Shown here piece after piece: positions 2,511-33,433 of a stretch of 33,433 nucleotides of DNA. The position numbers and the translations under genes were made by a program. The notes below the pieces were generated by a model. It was not told the DNA's origin and did no database searches. It saw only the letters and a program-made list of their open reading frames with translations. Numbering within the stretch: the first letter of the stretch is position 1; each line of letters begins with the position of its first letter. Source of the DNA: Halostagnicola kamekurae (GTDB taxonomy: Archaea; Halobacteriota; Halobacteria; Halobacteriales; Natrialbaceae); assembly GCF_900116205.1 (NCBI RefSeq), contig NZ_FOZS01000011.1, forward strand, positions 1 through 33,433, written 5' to 3'.

Positions 2511-2777
2511 ATGGCCCGGCCAAGCAAAAATGGAGACGCAATAAAATCGGAATTGAAATCTCAATTTGATCCAGATAAATCGGTTCTTGAGGCAACGATG
2601 GAAAGAATCGGAGAAGCCCAACAAATGGATGAGTTTAGAGAGTACTCTCATTGGGAGAATCCAGAAAAATTAGTAAGCCATCTATATGGGTTCTCACAAG
2701 AACAGGGGCTAAAGGCAGGTTGGAACAGGTGGATTAGTGTTCAGGAAGGCGACACTGCACGTCTGAAGATAGACTAA
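2511..2777 (+). CDS. Small unknown protein, 88 aa, leaderless promoter
   Basis: An 88-residue, lysine- and glutamate-rich protein beginning MARPSKNGDAIKSELK, with a helical middle (MERIGEAQQMDEFREY) and a tryptophan-containing C-terminal half. No known domain is recognised. Its A+T content is visibly higher than that of the flanking ArdC unit. A TATA-like TCATTTAAC is centred near 2487, about 24 bp before the ATG, which is what a leaderless haloarchaeal transcript looks like and supports this start over the out-of-frame ATG at 2505. Confidence 0.6.
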   Translation: MARPSKNGDAIKSELKSQFDPDKSVLEATMERIGEAQQMDEFREYSHWENPEKLVSHLYGFSQEQGLKAGWNRWISVQEGDTARLKID

Positions 2778-2944
2778 CAATAGGCAGTGATAGTGATTAT
2801 GTGGTTCACGCTAGTAGTAGTCGAAGAATAGTATATCAGTAGAAAACTATCTAATTGCTGACTGGTATCGTTCGGTCGTTGTCTTTCGAAGGGCATTTCA
2901 AACGAAGACAGTCGAGGACTGTAATTGATCCCTCGAAGACCTTT

Positions 2945-3100
2945 TCAGAGGTCAGGTGAGCCGATCTGACAGCCACATGGGGAGCAGATGTGCTCTGTCG
3001 GCCCGCGGCTTGTGATCCTGGTAACGGGCGTGCCACACCGCGGACAGCGTGGGAGCGACGATACCTCAGACTCGTCTTCAGTCGATGGCTGGTCGCTCAT
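2945..3100 (-). CDS. Zinc-finger microprotein, 51 aa
   Basis: A 51-residue protein with an acidic N-terminus (MSDQPSTEDESE) followed by CPRCGTPVTRI, a SRGPTEHICSP turn and PCGCQIG. Cys19 and Cys22 pair with Cys39, Cys42 or Cys44 to make a compact zinc knuckle. Short proteins with this 'CPRCG...SRGP.EH...CGC' pattern are familiar in haloarchaeal plasmids and viruses. Its ATG overlaps the TGA of the upstream 67-codon ORF (ATGA), so the two are probably translated together. A TATA-like GATATAAAC near 3170 could also drive it alone. The function is unknown. Confidence 0.6.
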   Translation of the reverse strand: MSDQPSTEDESEVSSLPRCPRCGTPVTRITSRGPTEHICSPCGCQIGSPDL

Positions 3101-3300
3101 TGGTCCCTCCAGCGTAGCTTTCTGGGAGCGCCAGCTAGTTGATAGTGGTACGGCTGTCGTGCGAGACGTTTATATCTCGGTAGAATTAACGCAAACATGG
3201 TTTCAACCCTTTCCGGGTTAGAAACCGCGCCTCGGGTGCTGCGACACCCGGGGCATTTCGGCGCATGCCCCTTGGCGACTGGTTGAAGCGCAGTTTCCAT
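3097..3300 (-). CDS. Possible 67-aa coupled ORF upstream of the zinc microprotein
   Basis: This ORF starts METALQPVAKGHAPKCPGC. It is preceded by a TATA-like ATTATAAG centred near 3329, about 29 bp before the ATG, and ends with a TGA that overlaps the next gene's ATG. Both points favour a real leaderless, coupled gene. Against it, residues 9-35 are encoded by three consecutive strong hairpins (3199-3271), so the segment may be a structured leader rather than protein. It has a single CPGC motif and no recognised family. Confidence 0.35.
   Translation of the reverse strand: METALQPVAKGHAPKCPGCRSTRGAVSNPERVETMFALILPRYKRLARQPYHYQLAGAPRKLRWRDQ
3199..3271. repeat. Three consecutive inverted repeats
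   Basis: Arms seen directly: 3199-3226, GGTTTC-AACCC with GGGTT-A-GAAACC; 3233-3250, CGGGTG with CACCCG; and 3250-3271, GGGGCAT with ATGCCCC. They are packed head to tail and overlap the 67-codon ORF. They may form an attenuator or RNA structure upstream of the zinc microprotein. The first hairpin superficially resembles half of a haloarchaeal CRISPR repeat, but there is no second copy. Confidence 0.6.
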
Positions 3301-3548
3301 CTTGATTATTGTCGGGTAGTCACTTATAATATTGGGATCTTGATTAGGTAGAAGAAAGCATATGCTGACTCTCTCTGCTTCAGTTCACTCACCAACGTTG
3401 AATGCCGATAGAGACTTGAGGACCATCTTATCGTTATCGACGAGTTCTTGCGACTCTACTCGATGAGGTGAGCAAAGTTACTGTGATCGTATCATTGCTT
3501 TTCCTTTGTCGATTGAAACGTACGAGATGAGTCGGAAGCCCTCAGGTG

Positions 3549-3977
3549 TTATATAAAATTGTTGATCGACGCACGAGATAAGCCCAAGTTCGTCAAGATA
3601 TGTGCTGAGCCATCGAATAACGCCTGTCCGGGTCCGCTCACCCAGTTATCTCTTTTTCCGACTTTGCTCGTATACCAGTCTTCAATCTGGTCTCGTGGGA
3701 CCGGATGGGAGTTCTTGGATAGTTCGAAAACACTGTCTAATAGTGCAACGAGATTGTAGGTGAGATCAAAGTAGAAGGGCTTCTCGTATAGTAGATCAAT
3801 GAGAGTATCTGCTTGGCTGGCGGTGACGTTCCACGGTTGCATTTCGTAATCTCCACCTGCAACATATTCCTCTCCACGATCAGTGAGTATCATTCCTTGT
3901 TGCGTAGTTTGTACGAACTCGAGGCCTTTCGCTGCTTTACGGAAATTACGGACTCGAGATTCTGGATTGCTTTTCAT
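3549..3977 (-). CDS. Unknown winged-helix-type protein, 142 aa
   Basis: The protein opens with a helix and beta hairpin (VRNFRKAAKGLEFVQTTQQGMILTDRG) that matches the second half of a winged helix ('T..G..LT..G..YV'). A mostly helical C-terminal part follows, with 'SQADTLIDLLYEKPFYFDLTYNLVALLDSVFELSK'. The first helices of a winged helix seem to be missing. The ATG follows directly after the TAG of the 71-codon gene and is in the same reading frame, so this could be the 3' part of a longer gene split by a nonsense mutation, or a second cistron. No family is recognised; DNA binding is inference. Confidence 0.55.
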   Translation of the reverse strand: MKSNPESRVRNFRKAAKGLEFVQTTQQGMILTDRGEEYVAGGDYEMQPWNVTASQADTLIDLLYEKPFYFDLTYNLVALLDSVFELSKNSHPVPRDQIEDWYTSKVGKRDNWVSGPGQALFDGSAHILTNLGLSRASINNFI

Positions 3978-4193
3978 CTATTTTATAGTTTTCTTCTGAG
4001 CCTTTCTACGGTTGCTATAGTCCCCAAGATGATTAGTTTCACCAAAGTATCCTACGGCGACTTGATAGCCTCTATCCCGTTTTTGGTGGACTGCTACCTT
4101 CGGATAACCAGATTCATGATCCCACTGTTTGTAATATCGGCCATCATTCTTCGTAAACTCCTTCTCAATAGAGTGATTCTTCTGATCCAACAT
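3978..4193 (-). CDS. Small basic protein, 71 aa (DUF2188-like feel)
   Basis: A basic 71-residue protein with the central pattern 'YPKVAVHQKRDRGYQVAVGYF', alternating beta strands in the manner of small stress-type domains such as DUF2188, though I cannot confirm membership. The TATA-like TTTTAAAAAC is centred near 4219, 26 bp before the ATG, which fits a leaderless start. It ends with a TAG immediately followed, in frame, by the ATG of the 142-aa gene. Base composition is A+T-rich, like the next few genes. Confidence 0.5.
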   Translation of the reverse strand: MLDQKNHSIEKEFTKNDGRYYKQWDHESGYPKVAVHQKRDRGYQVAVGYFGETNHLGDYSNRRKAQKKTIK

Positions 4194-5536: not shown

Positions 5537-6946
5537 TTAGAAAGGCCCATCATATTCTCCAGGTGAATTCTGAAAAATACTGTTGGTGAAGTTCTCACCT
5601 AGATCTGTGGAATTCTGTAAAGGAAGACCAAACGCCTGAAATATGGATACAACTGAATACAGGACTGAGGAAAATCGGTCTTCCTTAGATAATTCGATTT
5701 CGTACTGGAAAGGATTCATTCTCGGGGCTTCAACCACGTCGTCATAGCAAACCGGAGCACCGTAATCCTGAACCAATTCTTGATACCAGTCTGACTCAAA
5801 AAACAGCATTGTTCTATAGCCATTAATCAATCTGGCTTTGACATAGATGTTATTTGATTCTTCTGGCCAACCATAAGTTGAAAGTAAATTCATATAGATA
5901 TTCAAATGGTTATAGAGAGCAAGTAGAGTATTTTCCCCGTCAATGAACTGGATATTTTCATGGGATGAATCTAGGTACCTATCAATTACTTCCCATGTGA
6001 CTGTCTGATCGGATGGTTCCGGAAACGGAATTGTAGGAAGAGGCATGAAGAATTTCGCAGAACCATCAGCGAAAAACTTGATCGTAAGCGGAGTATGCGC
6101 CCTATCCTTATACCCATCTTCGTCATAAGTAGTCCACTGTTGAGCTACAACACCTTCGCTAGTTGCTCGATACGTATCCGCATCTACACCCATCTTAATA
6201 CTTTCATCTTCTTCCACGCCATCACGATCCTCCGAAAGTAGATACATGTTTGAAGACTGAACTGCATCCCTAAAACCGTCTAAATCTAACCGGACATCAC
6301 TGCAGACAGGTTCGTCAAGCGTTGTTGGGATACCGTATACCTCCAGCATAGGTATCCCCAGAATATCATTTTCTGGATCACCTGCATGCGCGTTTGTAAG
6401 CCCTACCTCGGTCTGACAGAATTCTTCAACTCTTTCCTGCCATTGCTCTCTCCGGTTATGAAGATCATCTAAAACACCTGGATCGGTTAACGGCCGATAG
6501 GGATCGCTTCCTTCACCAGTTCTCCGATACACACACCCGTTGTTATTGATATGCGGTGTGATCTGGCTTTCCGGAACATCTACTAGTATGACATATCCCT
6601 CACCTCCATCTTCAGAAAAACCATCAAATGTATGAGTTGTGAATCGTGGAGGCGGGCTAACGTATTCTTTGACTGCATTCCGGACTGTTTCCTTATATTT
6701 TGACGAATCACCATTACTCAATGTGAACCGGTCTTCCGGTTTGTTCGTGTCATCGTTTTCTTCAACTCCAAGGAAGAGAAGGCCGCCATACGTATTTGCA
6801 AATGAGCTAACTGATTTAGCGATATCTTCTTTTCCAATCAGACTTCGCTTGTATTCGTAGTAGTATCCCTCTGGAACATCTAACTCGTATATATCGTCGG
6901 AGTCTATCTCTGATAATGGTTTCTCGAAGGGATTGTAATTTATCAT
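5537..6946 (-). CDS. Schlafen AlbA_2-domain protein, 469 aa
   Basis: Residues 1-165 form a Schlafen AlbA_2 (divergent AAA/ATP-binding-like) domain. EYKRSLIGKEDIAKSVSSFANT followed by GGLLFLGVEEND is its hallmark, and a later VYRRTGEGSDPYRPL segment closes the domain. Residues 190-469 form a long C-terminal domain rich in aromatic and acidic residues that I do not recognise. AlbA_2 proteins bind nucleic acid or act as regulators, and many sit in prokaryotic defence islands. A TATA-like TTTTTATCAAG near 6976 is about 30 bp before the ATG, suggesting a leaderless single-gene transcript. It ends 21 bp from the PadR remnant, converging with it. It is A+T-rich compared with the replication genes. 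Confidence 0.75.
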   Translation of the reverse strand: MINYNPFEKPLSEIDSDDIYELDVPEGYYYEYKRSLIGKEDIAKSVSSFANTYGGLLFLGVEENDDTNKPEDRFTLSNGDSSKYKETVRNAVKEYVSPPPRFTTHTFDGFSEDGGEGYVILVDVPESQITPHINNNGCVYRRTGEGSDPYRPLTDPGVLDDLHNRREQWQERVEEFCQTEVGLTNAHAGDPENDILGIPMLEVYGIPTTLDEPVCSDVRLDLDGFRDAVQSSNMYLLSEDRDGVEEDESIKMGVDADTYRATSEGVVAQQWTTYDEDGYKDRAHTPLTIKFFADGSAKFFMPLPTIPFPEPSDQTVTWEVIDRYLDSSHENIQFIDGENTLLALYNHLNIYMNLLSTYGWPEESNNIYVKARLINGYRTMLFFESDWYQELVQDYGAPVCYDDVVEAPRMNPFQYEIELSKEDRFSSVLYSVVSIFQAFGLPLQNSTDLGENFTNSIFQNSPGEYDGPF

Positions 6947-13544: not shown

Positions 13545-15602
13545 TCACTTCGCGTCGAGGTGGGAGATTCCGATGACGGCTGGAAGTGAGTCCGGCTGTA
13601 ACGTGTTTTTTTCCTCGTGGTGTTCGTACCGTGCGATCTGCCCCATCAAACGGCGCAAGATGGCGTTCCGAAATTCAGTATGCGTCGCTACCGTTACGTT
13701 CGACTTGAGTGCATCATCGCTTCCGGGGACACCCACGAGATGATCGAATCGGTCGAGACCAGGGTCCAAATGGCTGAATTCGATCTGTGAGTCTATCTCA
13801 GTAATAGTGTACGCTGCGATCAGTTCCGTCTCCTCGAGCAATGCTTCCGGTGTCTCCGCGTCGTCGTTTATCGCAAGCCCGAAGACGAATCTGCAGTTTG
13901 TCTCAACAGGTTCGGCCTCAACTGCTGCTGTTCGAGCCAGTTTGATGCTGTGATTGAACAGTCCGTACCAAGTTTCGCGATCGATACTCTTGAGAGCAGT
14001 TACGAGTGCTTTCGTACGAGTGATATTTGGCTCGAGAAGGCGTGCTGCCTGAGCAGGAATGACGATATCTCCCGAGAGAGCATCGATCGGGACCGTTGTC
14101 CCGGTGTTGTCGAGTTCCTCGAGTCGGGCCACGATCAGGGGCCCCTCATCTCCCTCAACTGTACGTGAGAAGTCTGCCGTATCGAGATCTGGCTCGACGA
14201 CGAATCTGGTATCTTCGAATGTGGGACTGACGAGGAACTCAGTCCCATCGAACGAGACATTCGACAGGAATTGACAATCAGTGAAATCTGCCTCACCGGC
14301 GAAAGATGCAGCGTCGAATCTAGTAGCACCACCAAATTCGGTCCCCCTGAATACTGCTTGTGCGTCGAATTGGACCGATCGAAAATCGGCATCACCAGCG
14401 AGCTCGGCACCAAACTGGAAATGGTCGATCGTGGCTTCTCGGGCATCGACATCACCTTGGATCGTCGATCCGTGAAAAAATAGCTGGGATGTGGAGCAAG
14501 CGTTTCGAACAACGACATCGCCACCAAACGTGGCATCCCGCAGGTGGGTCAGATCTTCGAATTGAGCGCTATCGAAGTCAATGATACCGTCGAAGTGACC
14601 GTACGTGAACCAGACCTCGTCTTTGAACGTACAGTCTGTGAACGAAAGCGAATTAGCGAAGGTAGCGAACGAGAACGAGGTGTAGCCTTCGAACGTACTT
14701 TGGTCGAACGACGCGATGACACCGTGATGGCGGAAGTCGTCGAAATCCACTTTCCCAGCGAAGGTTACCTGCGGAGCATTCAGTTCCCCGCTGACGACCG
14801 CGTGGCAGCAGCGAACGTCACTGTCGATTTCGATACCAGATAGTGTGAGATCCTGCTCAAGGGACGCACCAGTGAGTCGAAACTCCCCACCGACGGTACT
14901 GTCGGCAAACGACGTCTCGTCGGTTACAGATATCATCGCAAAGTCAGCAAGAAGACGCCATTCGGTGCGGTCACACGAGAGTTCGCCGTGGAATGCAGAT
15001 CTAGCGAATCTGGCATTGGCACTAAACGAAGCCTCATCAAACACGGCTGGTCCGTCTACCGTGAGATTTCTCGCATCGACAAATCCAGCGTCAAGCCCGT
15101 TAGCGACTATACCATCATCGAACTGTGCGTGAGAGACCAGCGTCTGTCGGCCGATCTTCGCACCCGCCAAGTCAACGATACCCTCAAAACGTGTACCACG
15201 AGCGTCGAGTGTCCCCGTAATAGCAGCATTTCCGAGAAGGAGTGGTACTTTGATCGTCGCATTCGAGAGATCGAGGTCGCCGTCGATCGTTGCCCCTCGA
15301 AGATCGATCGGTTCGCCGTCTGGGGTCTCGAGGACTGTCCCCGAGAGATCGATCGACCCGATACGTCCACCCGCAAAGGTCGCGACTTGGTCTGGTTTGG
15401 AAACTGCTTCGAGGAACGTCTCAGCTATCGTATTCGGCGGATACTCGCCTTCAGCAGTGTGAAACAGACAGCGATCGTAGTCACTGGACAGTGGCGGGTG
15501 CGGACAGTAATCGGGTTCTGCAACTGGAAGCGGTCCAACGGCTGCCGGCGCCGTTTCACTTAGTGAGCGGTACTGATACGAGCAGTGTGTCTCTTGAGTC
15601 AT
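13545..15602 (-). CDS. Pentapeptide-repeat protein, 685 aa
   Basis: Residues 75-480 form one long stack of pentapeptide-type repeats in which every fifth residue is Phe or Leu and the pattern A(D/N)F/LxxA/T recurs, for example LDARGTRFEGIVDLAGAKI, SFSFATFANSLSFTD, DFRSVQFDAQAVFRGTEF and ADFTDCQFLSNVSFDG. Such stacks make right-handed quadrilateral beta-helices that mimic DNA or act as scaffolds. The N-terminus has Cys7, Cys33/His35 and Cys45/His48, a probable zinc site also seen in other haloarchaeal pentapeptide proteins. The last 200 residues are not repeats and contain an unrecognised alpha/beta domain. It is the middle gene between the HhH-GPD-like and HAD-like genes. Its function is unknown. 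Confidence 0.8.
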   Translation of the reverse strand: MTQETHCSYQYRSLSETAPAAVGPLPVAEPDYCPHPPLSSDYDRCLFHTAEGEYPPNTIAETFLEAVSKPDQVATFAGGRIGSIDLSGTVLETPDGEPIDLRGATIDGDLDLSNATIKVPLLLGNAAITGTLDARGTRFEGIVDLAGAKIGRQTLVSHAQFDDGIVANGLDAGFVDARNLTVDGPAVFDEASFSANARFARSAFHGELSCDRTEWRLLADFAMISVTDETSFADSTVGGEFRLTGASLEQDLTLSGIEIDSDVRCCHAVVSGELNAPQVTFAGKVDFDDFRHHGVIASFDQSTFEGYTSFSFATFANSLSFTDCTFKDEVWFTYGHFDGIIDFDSAQFEDLTHLRDATFGGDVVVRNACSTSQLFFHGSTIQGDVDAREATIDHFQFGAELAGDADFRSVQFDAQAVFRGTEFGGATRFDAASFAGEADFTDCQFLSNVSFDGTEFLVSPTFEDTRFVVEPDLDTADFSRTVEGDEGPLIVARLEELDNTGTTVPIDALSGDIVIPAQAARLLEPNITRTKALVTALKSIDRETWYGLFNHSIKLARTAAVEAEPVETNCRFVFGLAINDDAETPEALLEETELIAAYTITEIDSQIEFSHLDPGLDRFDHLVGVPGSDDALKSNVTVATHTEFRNAILRRLMGQIARYEHHEEKNTLQPDSLPAVIGISHLDAK

Positions 15603-16592: not shown

Positions 16593-17342
16593 ATGGAACC
16601 GATGAATATCGTCGACCGGGTGCAAATTGCACCGCTCGGTTACGAGAAAGCTCGTGTAAAAGAACCGATCTACCAATTCAACGCTGACAAGGTAGTGCTG
16701 ATCCGTCAGGACAGTAGTACTGACTACGAGACGGATTACCAACGTGATCTCATTTCCGAGTTAGAGGATAACGACCGGATCGAACTTGACACCTTGGAGT
16801 GTGACTTTTTCGATCTCGAGAGTTCGCTACGTGTACTCACGAGTGCGATCCGTGAACATGAAGATCACGACGTCTATGTGAACGCCTCGACCGGAAGCAA
16901 AATCACTGCTATCGCAGCAGTGATTGCTTGCCAAAATCTGGGCGCCACGCCGTTCTACGTCCGTCCCGAGTACCGTAATGACGACGGACATCTTGAGCCG
17001 CCAGAAGAGCCGCTCGTGAGTGAGGTAGGTGAAATCACAGACATACCGGTTTTCAGTCTCCAGAGCCCTTCTATGAACCAGTTGCTGGTACTCTCATACC
17101 TCGCTGAAGAAGATGGAGCCACCAAGAAAGAACTGATAGAGTTTGGCAAGTCACAAGAGTTCGATTTTATCGTCAATTCGAAAACGACGTCCGAAGAGGG
17201 CCTGTATAAACTCCTCGAGACGCATATCATTGATCCATTGCAGTCTAAGTCATTTATCTCTGTGAAGAAAGACGGGCGGACGAAACGAGTGTATCTCGCT
17301 GATCATGGGAAAGAAGCACTTCAGATATTCCAACCCGAGTGA
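16593..17342 (+). CDS. HFX_2341/DUF6293-type CARF transcriptional regulator, 249 aa
   Basis: Residues 1-150 form a CARF (CRISPR-associated Rossmann fold) domain: VQIAPLGYEKARVKEPIY at the N-terminus, strand VVLIRQD, and the ligand loop DVYVNASTGSKITAIAA with Asn97, Thr100, Gly101 and Lys103. Residues 160-249 form a winged helix (LVLSYLAEEDGATKKELIEFG, wing DGRTKRVYLADHG). This is the layout of haloarchaeal HFX_2341-type regulators, related to Csa3. The ligand would be a cyclic oligonucleotide or similar nucleotide. No CRISPR or cas gene is in the window. The start may be ATG 16593 or the ATG three codons later. It is divergent from the HhH-GPD operon, a natural control target. Confidence 0.75.
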   Translation: MEPMNIVDRVQIAPLGYEKARVKEPIYQFNADKVVLIRQDSSTDYETDYQRDLISELEDNDRIELDTLECDFFDLESSLRVLTSAIREHEDHDVYVNASTGSKITAIAAVIACQNLGATPFYVRPEYRNDDGHLEPPEEPLVSEVGEITDIPVFSLQSPSMNQLLVLSYLAEEDGATKKELIEFGKSQEFDFIVNSKTTSEEGLYKLLETHIIDPLQSKSFISVKKDGRTKRVYLADHGKEALQIFQPE

Positions 17343-21599: not shown

Positions 21600-22526
21600 T
21601 TACACACCTAATTCGTCTAGCGCATCCCGATGGGTCCGCACTGTTGCTGCTGAGACGTTTGCAGCCTCCGCGAGGGCCGACTGTGTGAGATACCACCTGT
21701 CTTTACAGGCCGCTTTGTACAGACAGGCAGCAGCGAATCCAGACGGACGAACACCCGTCGTAATACCTGCTGAGTCCGCCCGTTCAGCTAACTCTCTGGC
21801 TCGGTGGCGAATCCGATCCGGAACCTCGAGGTCCGAGGCAAGTCGGGGAACGAACTCGTGTGGAGAAACAGGCGCGGCTGGCAACCCAAGATCTGTGTTC
21901 ATCGTCTTGTACGCATTCCGAACTCGAGAGTGCTCAACACGTGCAAGTTCCGTAACGTCCTCGAGCGTTCTCGAGAGTCCGTTGCATCGACAGGCACCGT
22001 AGACGCTGGCTGCGGCCATCGCTTCGATCGATCGACCCGGAAGAAGGTCCTCGTTCTGGGCACTTCGGAAGAGCTGACATGCCTGGTCCCGAATTGATTC
22101 AGATAACTCGAGCACGCCCGCAATTCGACGGACTTCACCGAGCCCCTGTGCGAGGTTGCGCTCGGCTTTCGACCGAAACCGTCCTCGAGAGTGCTCCCGT
22201 CGTAGCCGCCCCAACTGTCGTCGCTTCCGTCCAGCAAGCGTGTTCCCGTTTGCATCGGTTCCACGCCCAATCTCGGTGGAGAGTCCGCGATCGTGCCGGG
22301 CGGCCGTCAGCGTGGCACCTGTTCGCTTTCGCTCGTCTCGATCGCATGCTCGCCACTCGGGTCCGTGATCTGTTCGTTGTTCGTCGACGATGAGGCCACA
22401 CTTCTCGCAGATAGTTTCGACCGTGTTGGTGGTGACTCGACCACCACATTCGGGACACTGGTTCGACTTCGTTTCATCTTGGACGTCTTCGTCAACCGTC
22501 GTCGTGTAGATGTCTCTCGTTGCCAT
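21600..22526 (-). CDS. tfb: Transcription initiation factor TFB, 308 aa
   Basis: An archaeal TFIIB homologue that recruits RNA polymerase and contacts the BRE beside TATA-bound TBP. The zinc ribbon has CPECGG (Cys24, Cys27) and CEKCG (Cys40, Cys43). The B-finger/linker contains PEWRACD. Two cyclin-like repeats follow: AQGLGEVRRIAGVLELSESI with SIEAMAAASVYGACR, then HEFVPRLASDLEVPDRI with RPSGFAAACLYKAA, and a terminal helix-turn-helix (NVSAATVRTHRDALDELG). Length fits the family. It has its own palindromic promoter element (22564-22596), so it may be regulated with other plasmid genes. Haloarchaea carry several TFBs with different targets. Confidence 0.95.
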   Translation of the reverse strand: MATRDIYTTTVDEDVQDETKSNQCPECGGRVTTNTVETICEKCGLIVDEQRTDHGPEWRACDRDERKRTGATLTAARHDRGLSTEIGRGTDANGNTLAGRKRRQLGRLRREHSRGRFRSKAERNLAQGLGEVRRIAGVLELSESIRDQACQLFRSAQNEDLLPGRSIEAMAAASVYGACRCNGLSRTLEDVTELARVEHSRVRNAYKTMNTDLGLPAAPVSPHEFVPRLASDLEVPDRIRHRARELAERADSAGITTGVRPSGFAAACLYKAACKDRWYLTQSALAEAANVSAATVRTHRDALDELGV

Positions 22527-27807: not shown

Positions 27808-29064
27808 TCATTCGTCCTCCCCGACGAACCGCCGTGCACGCGTCCAGATCGAGTCGTCTTGATCAGGACCCGTCTCATCCACCTCGGGATCCGAAGCCTG
27901 ATCACGATGCTCGAGTTCCTCCTGATAATCACTGAGTTGTTCTCGAAGCGCTTCGTTGGTTGCCTCGAGGTCAGCGATACGCTCGTCTTTCTCCTCGAGT
28001 GTTGTCTCAAGGTCGCCGACGCGGTCAGACAACAGCCGATTCTTTTCGACCAGATACGCATGATTCTGCGCTGGCTCGTCACGGTTCTCGGTGGTCGACG
28101 ACTCGCTTTCTTTGGAACTCGCTTCACTCGAGCCCTCTCGAGTGTCAGGATCGTAGAATTCGGAGGTATTTGCTATTGCTCGTTCGATGGTCTTTTCGCC
28201 GTACGTTGAGCCATCACCATAGTGGACGTCGTCCCACTTCTCCCGGAGAAGTCCTGATTGCCGGAAGAGTCGATCGACTCGAGCGTGGTCGCCACCGGTC
28301 CAGAACGCCAGCAAACAGCACAGCGCCATATCGGCTTCCGACTGGCTCTCGTACCCAGCTGTGTTCCCCTTCCAAAGACGCTCGAACTTTGATCCGTTCG
28401 ACGCATTTCGCGCCTTCTCGAGCAACTCCTCGTCCTCGAGGTCAACGTCGATATCGACTGTCTTGCCCGTCGATATCTGCTCGCTAGTCGTGCCACGATT
28501 CTCGGATTCAGATTTCGCACCAGTATCGGTGTCCTGGACGTACTCTCCGTGAATCGCCTCGAGTGCATCCTGCCGATGAGCAACATGGTTAGGCGTCTCC
28601 TCGAGGTGATCGCCGGTCACGGTGAAAAACCGAGCCGTGTCGTACAGTTCGATGCTTCCACGTCGATTCCGGCCAGATGGGAGCTCACCCTCGATGAGCA
28701 CATGAAACCCAGTTCCCGAGGGTGAGATCTCCGTATAGGAATCGAGTCGCTCGATAATGTCTTGAGCCACGTCGTCAACGTCCCCAGTTTCCGGATCCCG
28801 GCAGTCATCCAGGTCGACACCGACGATGGGGTCGTCGTCGGTAAACACAAACCCAACACCATCTGCCTCTCTCGAGTCAGCATACTCGAGCGCCGTCTTG
28901 ACCGACGTCCATGTGGTCGGATCCGTCGAGGATGCAAACTCACCACTCCCCGGTGTCACCGGGATCTTCGTTGGCTTCCCATCTCGAGATTCTCCTCGCC
29001 AGCACACCCACTGGTCACGTTTTCGTAACTGCTCGGGAAGCACTGAAACTGTACTTTCAGACAT
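27808..29064 (-). CDS. PrimPol-type plasmid primase, 418 aa
   Basis: Residues 1-170 are a bifunctional primase/polymerase-like domain of the phage NrS-1/plasmid type: WVCWRGESRDGKPTKIP, GVGFVFTDDDPIVGVDLDDC (Asp84, Asp86), SPSGTGFHVLIEG and a later TARFFTVTG strand. Residues 215-300 (LLEKARNASNGSKFERLW to KTIERAIAN) fit the helical HBD-like domain that follows it. The C-terminal 100 residues are a coiled coil (LVEKNRLLSDRVGDLETTL). There is no helicase part, so it needs a partner. I chose ATG 29064, which has GGTGG nearby; ATG 29130 is in frame and also possible. Iteron-like repeats lie just upstream. Confidence 0.75.
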   Translation of the reverse strand: MSESTVSVLPEQLRKRDQWVCWRGESRDGKPTKIPVTPGSGEFASSTDPTTWTSVKTALEYADSREADGVGFVFTDDDPIVGVDLDDCRDPETGDVDDVAQDIIERLDSYTEISPSGTGFHVLIEGELPSGRNRRGSIELYDTARFFTVTGDHLEETPNHVAHRQDALEAIHGEYVQDTDTGAKSESENRGTTSEQISTGKTVDIDVDLEDEELLEKARNASNGSKFERLWKGNTAGYESQSEADMALCCLLAFWTGGDHARVDRLFRQSGLLREKWDDVHYGDGSTYGEKTIERAIANTSEFYDPDTREGSSEASSKESESSTTENRDEPAQNHAYLVEKNRLLSDRVGDLETTLEEKDERIADLEATNEALREQLSDYQEELEHRDQASDPEVDETGPDQDDSIWTRARRFVGEDE

Positions 29065-29418
29065 CGCCGATCCACCTCGTGTTGTGCGTCCATCTGGTCG
29101 CATACCACTCATCAGTATTCTGATAAACATACCGTAAGCCGGTAGGCTGTCCGCACCCCTCTCCAACGGGTGCAACCCATTGTATACTAGTTGGTTTTTG
29201 GGGTGATTTTACCCCGGACAGTACTCCAGTCTGGTGGTTTTTACCCCGGACATCCGTTGAGCGGTTTACCCCGGACAAACAATTACCCTGGACAAGAACT
29301 GCAAAGGTGGAGAATAAACGGCATAGAGCTTGGTGTACGTCCGAATTGCTAATAAACCCACAAGTGGAACGGAACCACGGAGCATCGTACCCAACATACG
29401 TAACAGATGTGATGTTTA
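29065..29418. promoter_or_regulatory. Intergenic region upstream of the primase
   Basis: This 354-bp gap holds the iteron-like repeats and a possible diverged operator (29147-29176) before ATG 29130. A 121-codon frame on the minus strand (29057-29422) overlaps the primase start with its stop, as the leader ORFs do elsewhere, but it runs through the repeats and its only ATG is far upstream. I do not annotate it. Confidence 0.45.
29208..29294 (+). repeat. Iteron-like direct repeats (4 copies), candidate origin or operator
   Basis: TTTACCCCGGACA occurs at 29208-29220, 29240-29252 and 29265-29277, and a degenerate copy, ATTACCCTGGACA, at 29282-29294. Spacing is 32, 25 and 17 bp, so the copies are not phased. 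All have the same orientation. They lie between the ATPase gene end and the primase start, a usual site for a plasmid replication origin or autoregulatory operator. A hairpin, GCACCC/GGGTGC, follows at about 29151-29172. Confidence 0.65.
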
Positions 29419-32400
29419 TCATTGGTCGAGTAGATTAGTTCCTTCAGAAGTTAGGTCAATTCCAATGTAGACATTCACTTTATCGTCGCCATCTCTAACG
29501 CGATCACTATCATAGTCTACCGCGGTTGCGAGTTTCCGACCGAACCAGACCATGTTCGTTCCGTCCAAGTCATGAAGGTCGACCCAGTTGGAGTACGCCT
29601 GATAGAGGTCGTTCTTCGGCACCTGCGCTCCAGCGGTTTCCTCCACATACATTGCTGCGAACGCTTCCACACTATCGCCATTTGGATCGATCTCTATCGA
29701 CTCATCTTCTTCAGAGATCTCTGATTCGACCACATCTGGCCGGGTTTCCCCTCTTCGAGTTGAAGTCGAATCGTCGGTTCGGACTGAACCAGTGGTCGAT
29801 TTGGGTGGCCATAGCTCCGTGTCACTGGGGTTCTTCGGTAGTGAGTGTGTCTCACCACGGTGGAAGACGATTGGACTACCGTCTTCTGAAAGAATCAGCA
29901 CGAGATAGTTATCGCGAGAAATGTCCCCATTGGAGAGTTCCAGGTTAGGAATGAACGGCTGCTTGATCAGCGTCCATTCCTGTTCGAAGTCGTCTCTCGA
30001 GTCGTAGACTTGAGTGTCTCCAGCCTCGTAGACTGTATACTGGCCGGTCTCTCGATCATGGCTATAGTAGGCGGGCACACTGTCTTTCGAGAGTGTCCCC
30101 TCATCTGGAACACGAGCGAATACTGTCTCACCATCGGAAAGGACAATCTCGCCGTTCTCTCGTGTCCAAACAGTTCGATTCGACTCAAATGTCTTGGGTC
30201 GAACTGCAGTGACGCCACCGTGAGCGGTCGCACCACCGCCAAAGGTTACGGCCTCATCGGAGTTGTAGAACTGTTCGGTACCATCAGCCCGCTCTTGCAG
30301 AGGCGGCGAGAGGATGTTTTCAACCCGCGTTGCCCATTCTGTCTTCGAATCGCCGGGTCGAACAACGAAGATTGGGATTCGATCCGCTTCGTGGGCTCGC
30401 TTGAGATTTTGCAGGACTTTCACGGGCCGGTCCGGTGTCGTCGTCTCGGCCTCAATATTGAAGACGACGTCGTGATCTGGGTGGGTTGCAACTGCGTCAG
30501 GTTGCTCGCTCCCATCCTGCTCGAGAATTTCGACACTGAATCCACGTTCGGTGAGTGCTGTTTCCGTCTCGAGGAGGACCGCATCGTGGGTTGAGCCACC
30601 GGCTGATCGAACAGTGCCTGTCTCAGGCTCGACGGATGTTTCTCCGTCATCAGTGAGCCGAATCACGATATCGTCGTTCTGCAGCGTCACCTCAAGGAAC
30701 CGGGATCCCTCACGGATGTCCGGCAGCTCTTCGCGATCAAAGTCGATCTTGGGATCAGCCTTCTCAAGGCGGACTGCAAGTTCCTCGTCGACGGTAGCCA
30801 CATCGACCCAGTCGTTTTTCTCTCGTACACCATCTCGAATCTGGACTGCACGAACAGCTTCTGCCATCGTTTCCTCAAGAATCTTCGTCGGATTGGCTGC
30901 CTCATTCGAATCACTATAGAGGAGATCATTCAGGATTTCAGCGTCCGTCAGCGGATCAGTCCCATACCGCTCGAGACTCTGCTCAATAATTCGATCGACA
31001 GCATCCGTCCCTCGAAGCGGTGGGTATGGAGGAAACGTCTGGATTAACACGGGTTCGGAGTATCGCCCGCCCGAGAGGGGAATCCGCGTCCAGACTTTGA
31101 ACTGGTCGGTCGTAATGAGGTCTTCTGCCGTGTAGTCTCGGAAGCGTTTCATCAATAACTCGGCGTCGTCACTATCGTTGACCGAGAACGTGAGCAGGTT
31201 ATCGCAGTTGTTCTGCATCGCTTTCAGCGTGTCCTCGTCGAATTGGGAGGGATACTGTGAGGCCAGAGTCACCGACAATCGCATCGACCGAGCACGAGCT
31301 AGCATCGACTCGATATCGAGATTGTCGCTGGCGATGTCGTCAAACTCGTCGCAGAGAACAAAGTAGGGATCCGGCTCAGTGTCGAGTTCGTATGAGCGGC
31401 GCTGAATAGCACTCCAGAGATTCCGCATCACACCCAGCGTGACCATCTTCTTGATATCCGTATTCTCGACCGGCGTTCGAACGATGACGATCCGGTCGTT
31501 GTCGATGATATCGCGGAAATTGATCGTACTCTCACGATGGGCGATGATCCGCCGAATCACTGAGTTCTCGACCCAGGATTTGATCCGTTTCAAAAGCGGC
31601 CGAACCGTCTCCTCTTCCATCTCCGCGATCTCGAGGCAAAACTCCCTGATGTAGGGATCCTCAACGTCGAGTGCGAAGTCTTCGCGACGATCGGCGTTGA
31701 GCAGGATGAAGTACATATCGATGATGGAAAACGGCTGCTCGGACTTCATCATCGCTCGAGCCATCGACTCAGTGATCGCCTCCATGTTGATGCCCCAGTA
31801 GTCGGAGGTGTCGAAGACCGCTTTCAGGTTCTCAACCCGATTTTCGATCTCGTTCTCGAGTTCCTCAGTCGTCTCGCACTCGGGGACTTCGAGGAAATTC
31901 ATCCCGACTGTGTTTTCATGGGTGGTCGATCCAGGCTCGATCCAGACCACGTCCTCGAGGCGATGTTTAGGGAGCATCCGGAGGAGTTCACGAGAGTCCT
32001 GGCCTTTTGGATCGAAGTACGTGAAGCCATAGCCCGAATACGCCCACTGGACCATCATATTCAACAGTTGGGTCGTCTTTCCGTAGCCAGTCGTCCCAGC
32101 GATCCAGTTGTGCCGAAACAGGGAGTCAAACCGGAGCGGGGCTTCGCGAAATCCAGTCTGAGGATCCTCCGTATAGCCAACCCAGAGTGGGGCAGGGGCG
32201 TTGTACATCCCGGCTTCGAACATCTCCCGAACGTACGGGCCTGCAACCGTGCCTTCATCGGCTGTGTCCGTGAGGATTGGTTTGCCACCGACGCGAGTCG
32301 TGTTTTGATCGACGATCTGGTATTGTTCCCTGTCGGAGTTTGGTTGCTGATCAGAAGATGACTCAGCACCAGTGTTCTTGGTTTCTGTCTGGTCGTCACC

Positions 32401-32505
32401 ACCTGTGGAGGAGATTTCTTCACCGGACGCATCATCTACTGGTTCGTGCTCACTATCGCTACTCGAGGGCTCCTCACCGGATCCGAAGAATCGATCAAAT
32501 ACCAT
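29419..32505 (-). CDS. VirD4/TraD-like P-loop ATPase with extra C-terminal domains, 1028 aa
   Basis: An acidic N-terminal tail (1-60) precedes an AAA/HerA-type motor: Walker A GTTGYGKTT at 137-145 and Walker B YFVLCDEFDD at 381-390, followed by a sensor region with 'SVTLASQYPSQF'. This fits conjugative coupling proteins (TraD/TrwB) and VirB4-like archaeal homologues. No N-terminal membrane helices are visible. Residues 640-720 look like a PD-(D/E)XK-type domain (PDAVATHPDHDVVFNIEAE), and residues 945-1020 match the winged helix at the end of D5-type primase-helicases (VPKNDLYQAYSNWVDLHDL). The ATG 32505 has GGAGGG 8 bp upstream and overlaps the previous gene by 11 bp. Probable role: moving plasmid DNA during transfer. 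Confidence 0.8.
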   Translation of the reverse strand: MVFDRFFGSGEEPSSSDSEHEPVDDASGEEISSTGGDDQTETKNTGAESSSDQQPNSDREQYQIVDQNTTRVGGKPILTDTADEGTVAGPYVREMFEAGMYNAPAPLWVGYTEDPQTGFREAPLRFDSLFRHNWIAGTTGYGKTTQLLNMMVQWAYSGYGFTYFDPKGQDSRELLRMLPKHRLEDVVWIEPGSTTHENTVGMNFLEVPECETTEELENEIENRVENLKAVFDTSDYWGINMEAITESMARAMMKSEQPFSIIDMYFILLNADRREDFALDVEDPYIREFCLEIAEMEEETVRPLLKRIKSWVENSVIRRIIAHRESTINFRDIIDNDRIVIVRTPVENTDIKKMVTLGVMRNLWSAIQRRSYELDTEPDPYFVLCDEFDDIASDNLDIESMLARARSMRLSVTLASQYPSQFDEDTLKAMQNNCDNLLTFSVNDSDDAELLMKRFRDYTAEDLITTDQFKVWTRIPLSGGRYSEPVLIQTFPPYPPLRGTDAVDRIIEQSLERYGTDPLTDAEILNDLLYSDSNEAANPTKILEETMAEAVRAVQIRDGVREKNDWVDVATVDEELAVRLEKADPKIDFDREELPDIREGSRFLEVTLQNDDIVIRLTDDGETSVEPETGTVRSAGGSTHDAVLLETETALTERGFSVEILEQDGSEQPDAVATHPDHDVVFNIEAETTTPDRPVKVLQNLKRAHEADRIPIFVVRPGDSKTEWATRVENILSPPLQERADGTEQFYNSDEAVTFGGGATAHGGVTAVRPKTFESNRTVWTRENGEIVLSDGETVFARVPDEGTLSKDSVPAYYSHDRETGQYTVYEAGDTQVYDSRDDFEQEWTLIKQPFIPNLELSNGDISRDNYLVLILSEDGSPIVFHRGETHSLPKNPSDTELWPPKSTTGSVRTDDSTSTRRGETRPDVVESEISEEDESIEIDPNGDSVEAFAAMYVEETAGAQVPKNDLYQAYSNWVDLHDLDGTNMVWFGRKLATAVDYDSDRVRDGDDKVNVYIGIDLTSEGTNLLDQ

Positions 32506-33433
32506 CGAATCCCTCCTGCTCTCGAGGAGAGCCATCAGTGGTGACTGCCGTCTTCTCCGGCACAGCTGGTGTCTGCCCATCAACCGGCGATTCGTCAGAT
32601 TGGTGTTGAGACCCATCCGATGGAAGCCGGTCACCCCGCTGAGTGTAGCGCCAGTCGATCTTTGGGGTTTCAATCTCCGCGTTGGGGATGTGTGCGACGC
32701 CGGCGAGCTCGTCGACAGTCATGATCATACGACGGTCGATCCACTCGCGATCGCGCATTCGATAGAGGAATTGCCGAAGTCGTTCAGCTCGTTTCCGTTC
32801 TTTGCGATGCCAGATAGGGTTATCGTCGAGTCCTTGCTCTGTGGTCGCGTTGTAGTACTTTCTGAACATCCCCGCAACCCCGCGGGCTCGAGCTTCGGCT
32901 TCGTCCTTCTCTGAGGATGCGGCGAGAACACGGATGTTCACGTGGAACGCCTGTTGACCCCGTTGCTGTTCGATCGTTTTCGCAGCCTGCTTGTCCTTCT
33001 CGCTCGCCGGTCGGGTTCGAGGGTTGAGCCACCCAACCGAGGTACCTTGGCGAAGTGCGTGCGCGAGTTCGTCAACGCTGTTGTGCTTGAACCGGTCACC
33101 CTCGGTCCACGACTGTTTCGCCGGTCGAAAAACAACCTGCGTGACGACTGTACTGTCGTCGAGTGAGAGCATCTCGCTGGTGATTTCGCCGTAGGGGTCC
33201 GTCTCGAAGCCTTCGCTGTTGTGATGGCGGATCGGGTAGTACGGGATTTTCTCCATCTCGAGCCAGGCGCCGGCGACGTACTCGTCAGAGTCAATCACCG
33301 GGAACGCATACCCGTCTTCGACAGCGAAGATTTCGCTATTCGCGTAGTTGTTCCCGACGCGACGGCGGAATTTGTCGGCGGCTGCCTCCGTGGCAGCGTG
33401 CATATAGAAGGTGATCTTCCCCTGGTCGAACCA
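32495..33433 (-). CDS. Unknown plasmid protein upstream of the ATPase, partial (at least 312 aa)
   Basis: The frame is open to the right edge of the window (WFDQGKITFYM precedes the first visible ATG at 33403), so the gene is cut and its true start is beyond the window. Visible features: beta-rich YAFPVIDSDEYVAGAWLEMEK, an ITSEMLSLDDSTVVTQVVFRP block, and a basic helical KERKRAERLRQFLYRMRDREW. The C-terminal 60 residues are low-complexity (Ser, Gln, Pro). It ends 11 bp inside the ATPase gene and is cotranscribed with it. I do not recognise the family; the pairing with a VirD4/TraD-like ATPase suggests a mating-pair or DNA-processing role. Confidence 0.65.
   Translation of the reverse strand, partial: WFDQGKITFYMHAATEAAADKFRRRVGNNYANSEIFAVEDGYAFPVIDSDEYVAGAWLEMEKIPYYPIRHHNSEGFETDPYGEITSEMLSLDDSTVVTQVVFRPAKQSWTEGDRFKHNSVDELAHALRQGTSVGWLNPRTRPASEKDKQAAKTIEQQRGQQAFHVNIRVLAASSEKDEAEARARGVAGMFRKYYNATTEQGLDDNPIWHRKERKRAERLRQFLYRMRDREWIDRRMIMTVDELAGVAHIPNAEIETPKIDWRYTQRGDRLPSDGSQHQSDESPVDGQTPAVPEKTAVTTDGSPREQEGFDGI

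Follow-up and report, generated by a model that had tools for sequence, protein, structure and literature searches.

On a plasmid of the haloarchaeon Halostagnicola kamekurae, four short direct repeats separate a PrimPol gene from the 3′ end of a coupling ATPase gene, and they raise the question of which protein reads them and what the site is for. The stretch analysed, hereafter the window, comprises the 33,433 nucleotides of contig NZ_FOZS01000011.1 (Table 1). The original prediction had described three exact repeats and a degenerate one in the same orientation, and regarded them as an origin or autoregulatory site of a PrimPol replication system with no separate initiator gene adjacent. The repeats themselves are confirmed, with starts 32, 25 and 17 bp apart and all copies on the plus strand, and the PrimPol gene lies downstream of them in the direction of transcription, the coupling ATPase gene upstream.

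Table 1. Features of the PrimPol/coupling-protein locus (positions in the window)
Feature	Position	Strand	Basis
NrS-1-like PrimPol, 418 aa, ATG at 29064	27811..29064	-	PF22763; phrog_1829; PDB NrS-1 primase
Imperfect inverted repeat CAACGGGT GCA ACCCATTG, beside core	29164..29182	.	partly conserved in relatives
Conserved core TATACTAGTTGGTTTT, 16 bp, candidate nick or opening site	29183..29198	+	conservation
Iteron 1, TTTACCCCGGACA	29208..29220	+	exact copy
Iteron 2, TTTACCCCGGACA	29240..29252	+	exact copy
Iteron 3, TTTACCCCGGACA	29265..29277	+	exact copy
Iteron 4, degenerate, ATTACCCTGGACA	29282..29294	+	2 mismatches vs TTTACCCCGGACA
TraG/VirD4-type coupling ATPase fusion, 1084 aa	29419..32673	-	PF12696, PF10412, NCBIfam TraD/VirD4-like
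P4-origin-binding/RFX/D5-type winged helix, residues 991-1077	29443..29703	-	fold and family matches
Putative recognition helix TNMVWFGRKL, about residues 1038-1050	29524..29562	-	V1042 tracks TTTA-type iterons
Probable PD-(D/E)xK-like nuclease fold, residues about 689-956	29806..30609	-	fold matches and motif residues
First winged helix, ORC1/MarR-like fold, residues about 591-684	30622..30903	-	VIA-align Z about 9
Coupling-protein ATPase region, residues about 170-520	31114..32166	-	family matches
302-aa protein	32495..33403	-	phrog_5156

The exact 13-mer TTTACCCCGGACA has three sites in the whole 4.1 Mb genome, all of them here, and when up to one mismatch is allowed the sole further cluster consists of three copies of TTTACCCTGGACA, which precede a further copy of PrimPol located on contig C15. 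Repeats were also looked for upstream of homologous primases in other replicons, where they recur, both in loci selected by motif and in loci fetched independently of it. Homologous loci throughout the class have the repeats at the same four positions, so the arrangement is not due to chance, but their sequence is not kept. Copies agree inside one locus and differ between loci, a concerted switching that defines about 15 classes (TTTACCC(C/T)GGACA, TTTACCCTGAACA, TTTGCCCTGAACA, TTGCGTGGACA, TTGCCGTAACA, TTGGGTGGAACA, TTGCCGTAAGA, TTGCCTGGACA and others), with a tail that is mostly common to them.

Just to the left of the iterons sits a second element that had been overlooked, the core TATACTAGTTGGTTTT, relative to which the iterons follow two fixed geometries that match two subfamilies of the coupling protein. 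This 16-mer is found exactly in 41 of the 391 genomes of the class, and the reversed control pattern in none of the genomes listed. To avoid selection on the core motif, 40 further loci were fetched by PrimPol similarity alone; most of them have the core and the iterons at the same place, with the core consensus TAT[AC]CTAGT[TC]GGTTTT and variants of it. Across 29 motif-independent loci, the core carries about 1.5-1.6 bits per base versus about 0.3 around it. It lies about 240 bp past the coupling-protein stop in most loci and its distance to the iterons is fixed, but the distance to the PrimPol start varies from about 92 to 191 nt (about 107-141 bp in most loci). The core also has exact matches in viral contigs (L044-L052), which are attributed to chance, the module being absent there.

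The inverted repeat beside the core is 62% paired, against 30-53% when slid, and is weakly conserved in relatives; a perfect conserved hairpin at the core was unsupported by the motif-independent loci. There are two loci whose family sequence ends inside the core, L113 and L147. The former was considered as a natural cleavage junction and rejected, since the flanking DNA (about 2650-4000, adjoining PrimPol) belongs to an IS element that encodes a transposase, is present in multiple copies and has inserted inside the core; the junction is therefore uninformative on nicking.

The PrimPol matches the NrS-1 primase of the PDB (E=6e-40) and has the PrimPol and HBD domains (PF22763), without the helicase and the C-terminal winged helix found in its phage relatives. 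In phrog_1829, a phage primase family of 772 aa, positions 6-338 match this PrimPol and positions 675-758 match the C-terminal 87 residues of the coupling protein; the winged helix that ends such primases is thus carried here by the coupling protein, again as its final part. The latter scores above the cut-offs of three coupling ATPase families (PF12696, 26.3 bits against 22; PF10412, 22.5 against 20.5; PF02534, 21.0 against 20.1). One longer viral family, phrog_5156, matches both the coupling protein and the neighbouring 302-aa protein, and the lengths of the proteins suggest that the two are fused in the other subfamily.

AlphaFold2 models of the coupling protein reached a pLDDT of 76.6 for residues 520-1084 and of 84.3 for 680-960. 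The modelled C-terminal winged helix superposes on RFX (Z 11.5, rmsd 1.7, 75 residues) and on the P4 origin-binding domain (Z 9.5, rmsd 2.2, 81 residues). Family members match Pox_D5 in this region in 44 of 53 cases (best 2.4e-8) and RFX in 10 (best 9e-7), and the protein of the window, taken alone, stays under the Pfam cut-off. The top structural matches of the middle domain are nearly all PD-(D/E)xK proteins: PaqCI (Z 8.6, rmsd 4.1, 126 residues), FokI (7.7), Hjc (7.5) and the nickase BspD6I (6.9). No known relaxase is listed among the top matches of the structure searches. The model has the order H-E-E-E-H-E, to be compared with the alpha-beta-beta-beta-alpha-beta core of the superfamily. 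H696, D697, D726, E741, E743 and K752 are invariant, and the motif residues PD (725-726), ExE (741-743) and K752 are invariant or nearly so. We consider this domain a probable PD-(D/E)xK-like nuclease fold, for which scores near 8 are moderate and share the weight with the ordered core and the motif residues. Enzymes of this superfamily usually cut both strands, which counts against a role as nickase.

It is the C-terminal winged helix whose sequence follows that of the iterons. The recognition helix reads xVWFxRKL with TTTA-type iterons, ASWFGRKL with TTTGCCCTGAACA, KGWFTRKL with GCGTGGACA, SWFxRRL with GCCGTAACA, NKSWFTRKL with GGGTGGAACA and KNWFARRL with GCCGTAAGA. Across 70 loci and with divergence controlled, 16 of the 20 top columns out of 736 fall within residues 991-1077 (hypergeometric 3e-13), and the loci with V1042 are exactly those with TTTA-type iterons (12/12). 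Nearest neighbours, with pairs over 90% identical left out, predicted the iteron class in 61 of 70 cases from the winged helix, compared with 19/69 from the ATPase, 22/70 from the nuclease-like domain and 20/70 from PrimPol, whose best column reaches r=0.20. The domain was present in 19 of 20 hold-out regions, and for 15 of these 19 the class that it predicted came top among the 15 classes. Of the four misses, one domain was truncated where its contig stopped and two had identities below 40%; in the last (L173), similarity over the whole domain was misleading, and the V1042-TTTA rule held.

Part of this covariation is linkage, because the winged helix and the iterons sit a few hundred base pairs apart, and silent sites near the gene end weakly track the class (mean r up to 0.14). 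Linkage alone is nevertheless insufficient, since replacement changes at residues 1038-1062 track the class (mean r 0.27) and silent changes in the same codons hardly do so (0.05). A point against a reading in terms of specificity is that an iteron class is at times common to several modules of one genome.

The exchange history of these loci points in the same direction. Iteron class needs 26 changes on the tree of the protein body (minimum 14), which indicates that cassettes swap on near-identical bodies. Among 55 pairs with bodies over 88% identical and different iteron classes, identity stays at about 0.9 as far as residue 899, drops through the linker (0.38 and 0.18), is 0.38-0.56 in the winged helix and 0.34 in the iteron DNA, and is back to 0.96 in the core. 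From this profile, the winged helix and the iterons are replaced as one unit, a swappable specificity cassette bounded by the nuclease-like domain and the core. When loci of different class are compared, the right edge of the core is exactly where identity changes from about 0.98 to 0.38. This drop had first suggested an exchange at a nick, an idea that we rejected: both flanks of the exchanged segment, which comprises the winged-helix end of the protein and the iterons, are conserved, so that homologous recombination suffices.

These observations give strong support to the binding of the iterons by the winged helix, as predicted from covariation. The coupling protein rather than PrimPol is most likely the binder, because the winged helix predicts the iteron class, PrimPol does not, and helix and iterons move together. 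The original prediction of a PrimPol-system site therefore holds in one part, the recurrence of iterons before homologous primases, and most likely fails in the other, PrimPol as the reader. The statement that no initiator gene lies adjacent has to be withdrawn as well, since the coupling-protein gene beside the repeats encodes, at its end, a winged helix of P4-origin-binding/RFX type that tracks the iteron sequence.

The arrangement PrimPol, core, four iterons and coupling-protein gene recurs on haloarchaeal plasmids and chromosomes, and it is conserved in both the motif-selected and the motif-independent loci. The region is matched by blastn in 130 haloarchaeal plasmids, all classed as non-mobilizable by MOB-suite, and the full-length coupling fusion is found only in Halobacteria within a phylum-wide sample of 247 genomes. 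Some modules lie on contigs over 3 Mb, and one replicon can hold two of them. The genome of H. kamekurae has a second module, split between two contig ends that probably join: the end of C15 (4422-4609) carries PrimPol, the core and class-A iterons, and that of C5 (about 90476-92418) a coupling-protein fusion whose NDVWFGRKL helix matches them. One locus (L082) has two cores about 650 bp apart, face to face, with iterons of classes C and B and coupling-protein remnants, which would be a rearranged or decaying double site. Five others (L056, L061, L072, L077 and L100) have core and iterons and no intact coupling protein nearby; these could have decayed from full modules, or could be mobilised in trans. 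The window also encodes an extra TFIIB (21600-22526), and TFIIB genes follow PrimPol on two relatives (L010, L013). Elsewhere in it are an HFX_2341/Card1-like CARF-domain protein with a DUF6293 winged helix, a possible cyclic-oligoadenylate sensor (16593-17342), a 469-aa Schlafen/AlbA_2-domain protein (5537-6946) and a 685-aa protein with pentapeptide repeats (13545-15602).

What the site is for can be approached through its operon. On the homologous Halomontanus plasmid NZ_CP135526, the order is T4SS pilin (PF18895), two unknowns, TrbL/VirB6 (PF19590), a second TraG-type ATPase, an unknown, the coupling-protein fusion, the core with iterons, and PrimPol; the window ends before such secretion genes. 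Pfam detected no relaxase of known family among the nine genes of the module on this one plasmid, distant families being outside the reach of the search. Surveys of conjugation have described relaxases as missing or unknown in archaeal T4SS elements and have suggested unknown ones (PMC3158045, PMC9905601). Because the site belongs to a type IV secretion operon without a known relaxase and lies beside a candidate nick core, we favour, with a probability of about 0.62, that the coupling protein binds the iterons through its C-terminal winged helix, and that iterons and core together form an oriT or a transfer-linked replication origin.

The events at such a site can be proposed in order. The winged helix would bind the iterons, the step with strong support from covariation, and the PD-(D/E)xK-like domain of the same protein would thereby be placed over the core, which would be nicked or opened. 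The ATPase part, judging from its family, would drive the DNA into the T4SS channel encoded by the same operon, and the neighbouring helicase-less PrimPol could prime the complementary strand. Elements exchange the winged helix and its cognate iterons as one specificity cassette. More tentatively, haloarchaeal conjugation might be started by a single polypeptide that unites iteron-binding initiator, nickase and coupling motor, with the relaxase replaced and transfer specificity changed by the cassette swap.

A vegetative origin of a PrimPol replicon, where the coupling-like protein would be initiator or helicase and PrimPol the primase with no link to transfer, is unlikely in our view. The P4 alpha and pRN1-type proteins do join primase, helicase and origin-binding winged helix in one initiator (PMC4234260), and the split match of phrog_1829 described above speaks for this reading. 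However, the motor matches coupling proteins and not SF3 helicases, and this origin is made less likely by the operon with T4SS pilin and VirB6 genes, by a Cdc6/Orc gene elsewhere on that same plasmid NZ_CP135526, and by double modules and megabase-size contigs, two modules being able to share one replicon.

An operator is more doubtful still: the winged helix on the iterons would only repress or time primPol transcription by autoregulation, with the core as a promoter element. The site does lie upstream of primPol in intact loci, and P4-type origin-binding domains can also regulate, but the core keeps its distance to the iterons and not to the PrimPol start, and a haloarchaeal TATA/BRE site needs less than a 16-bp invariant block. 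We regard as very improbable that the core is a site of strand exchange like dif or att, with the iterons as accessory elements. The abrupt loss of identity at the right edge of the core would suit such a recombination or resolution site, yet ordinary homologous recombination explains a cassette swap between two conserved flanks, no recombinase gene is constant in the module, and the half-core examined was an IS insertion. As for PrimPol itself binding the iterons, as originally proposed, the adjacency of its gene and the HBD domain of NrS-1-type PrimPols speak for it, but its columns do not track the iteron class, and we find it hardly credible.

An oriT or transfer-linked origin of the kind that we favour has partial parallels in known systems. 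The phage P4 alpha protein (PDB 1ka8) has a winged-helix fold that reads direct-repeat iterons at a primase-tied origin, as is predicted here, although its domain is fused to a primase and an SF3 helicase, and ours to a coupling ATPase and a nuclease-like domain with the primase separate. RSF1010 has iterons that are those of RepC. This mobilisable element also has a separate primase (RepB′) and iteron binder (RepC), but its proteins are unrelated and it has an HUH relaxase (RepB′/MobA, PMC5862659). The crenarchaeal plasmid pRN1 likewise relies on an archaeal PrimPol protein, ORF904, whose C-terminus is a winged helix (PMC4234260). There, a single chain also includes an SF3 helicase, and the stem-loop origin has no iterons. 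The NrS-1 phage PrimPol shares the PrimPol and HBD domains, whereas the chain studied here has neither helicase nor winged helix. VirD4, TraD and TraG coupling proteins have the same ATPase core (PF12696, PF10412, NCBIfam TraD/VirD4 models), but ordinary ones dock a relaxase and this one has its own DNA-recognition domain and nuclease-like fold. Finally, bacterial oriTs resemble the site in their short conserved core, repeated accessory-protein sites and nearby transfer genes, and perhaps in the imperfect inverted repeat, weakly conserved here. They appear to differ in having a relaxase, none of known family being seen by Pfam among the nine module genes of NZ_CP135526.

The locus offers a concrete candidate for an archaeal conjugation site, the core with its iterons, and for its protein, a coupling ATPase to which a nuclease-like and an origin-binding domain are fused. 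In addition, it presents what would be a natural specificity code between recognition helix and iterons in about 15 classes, and it suggests how archaeal plasmids may start conjugation without any known relaxase.
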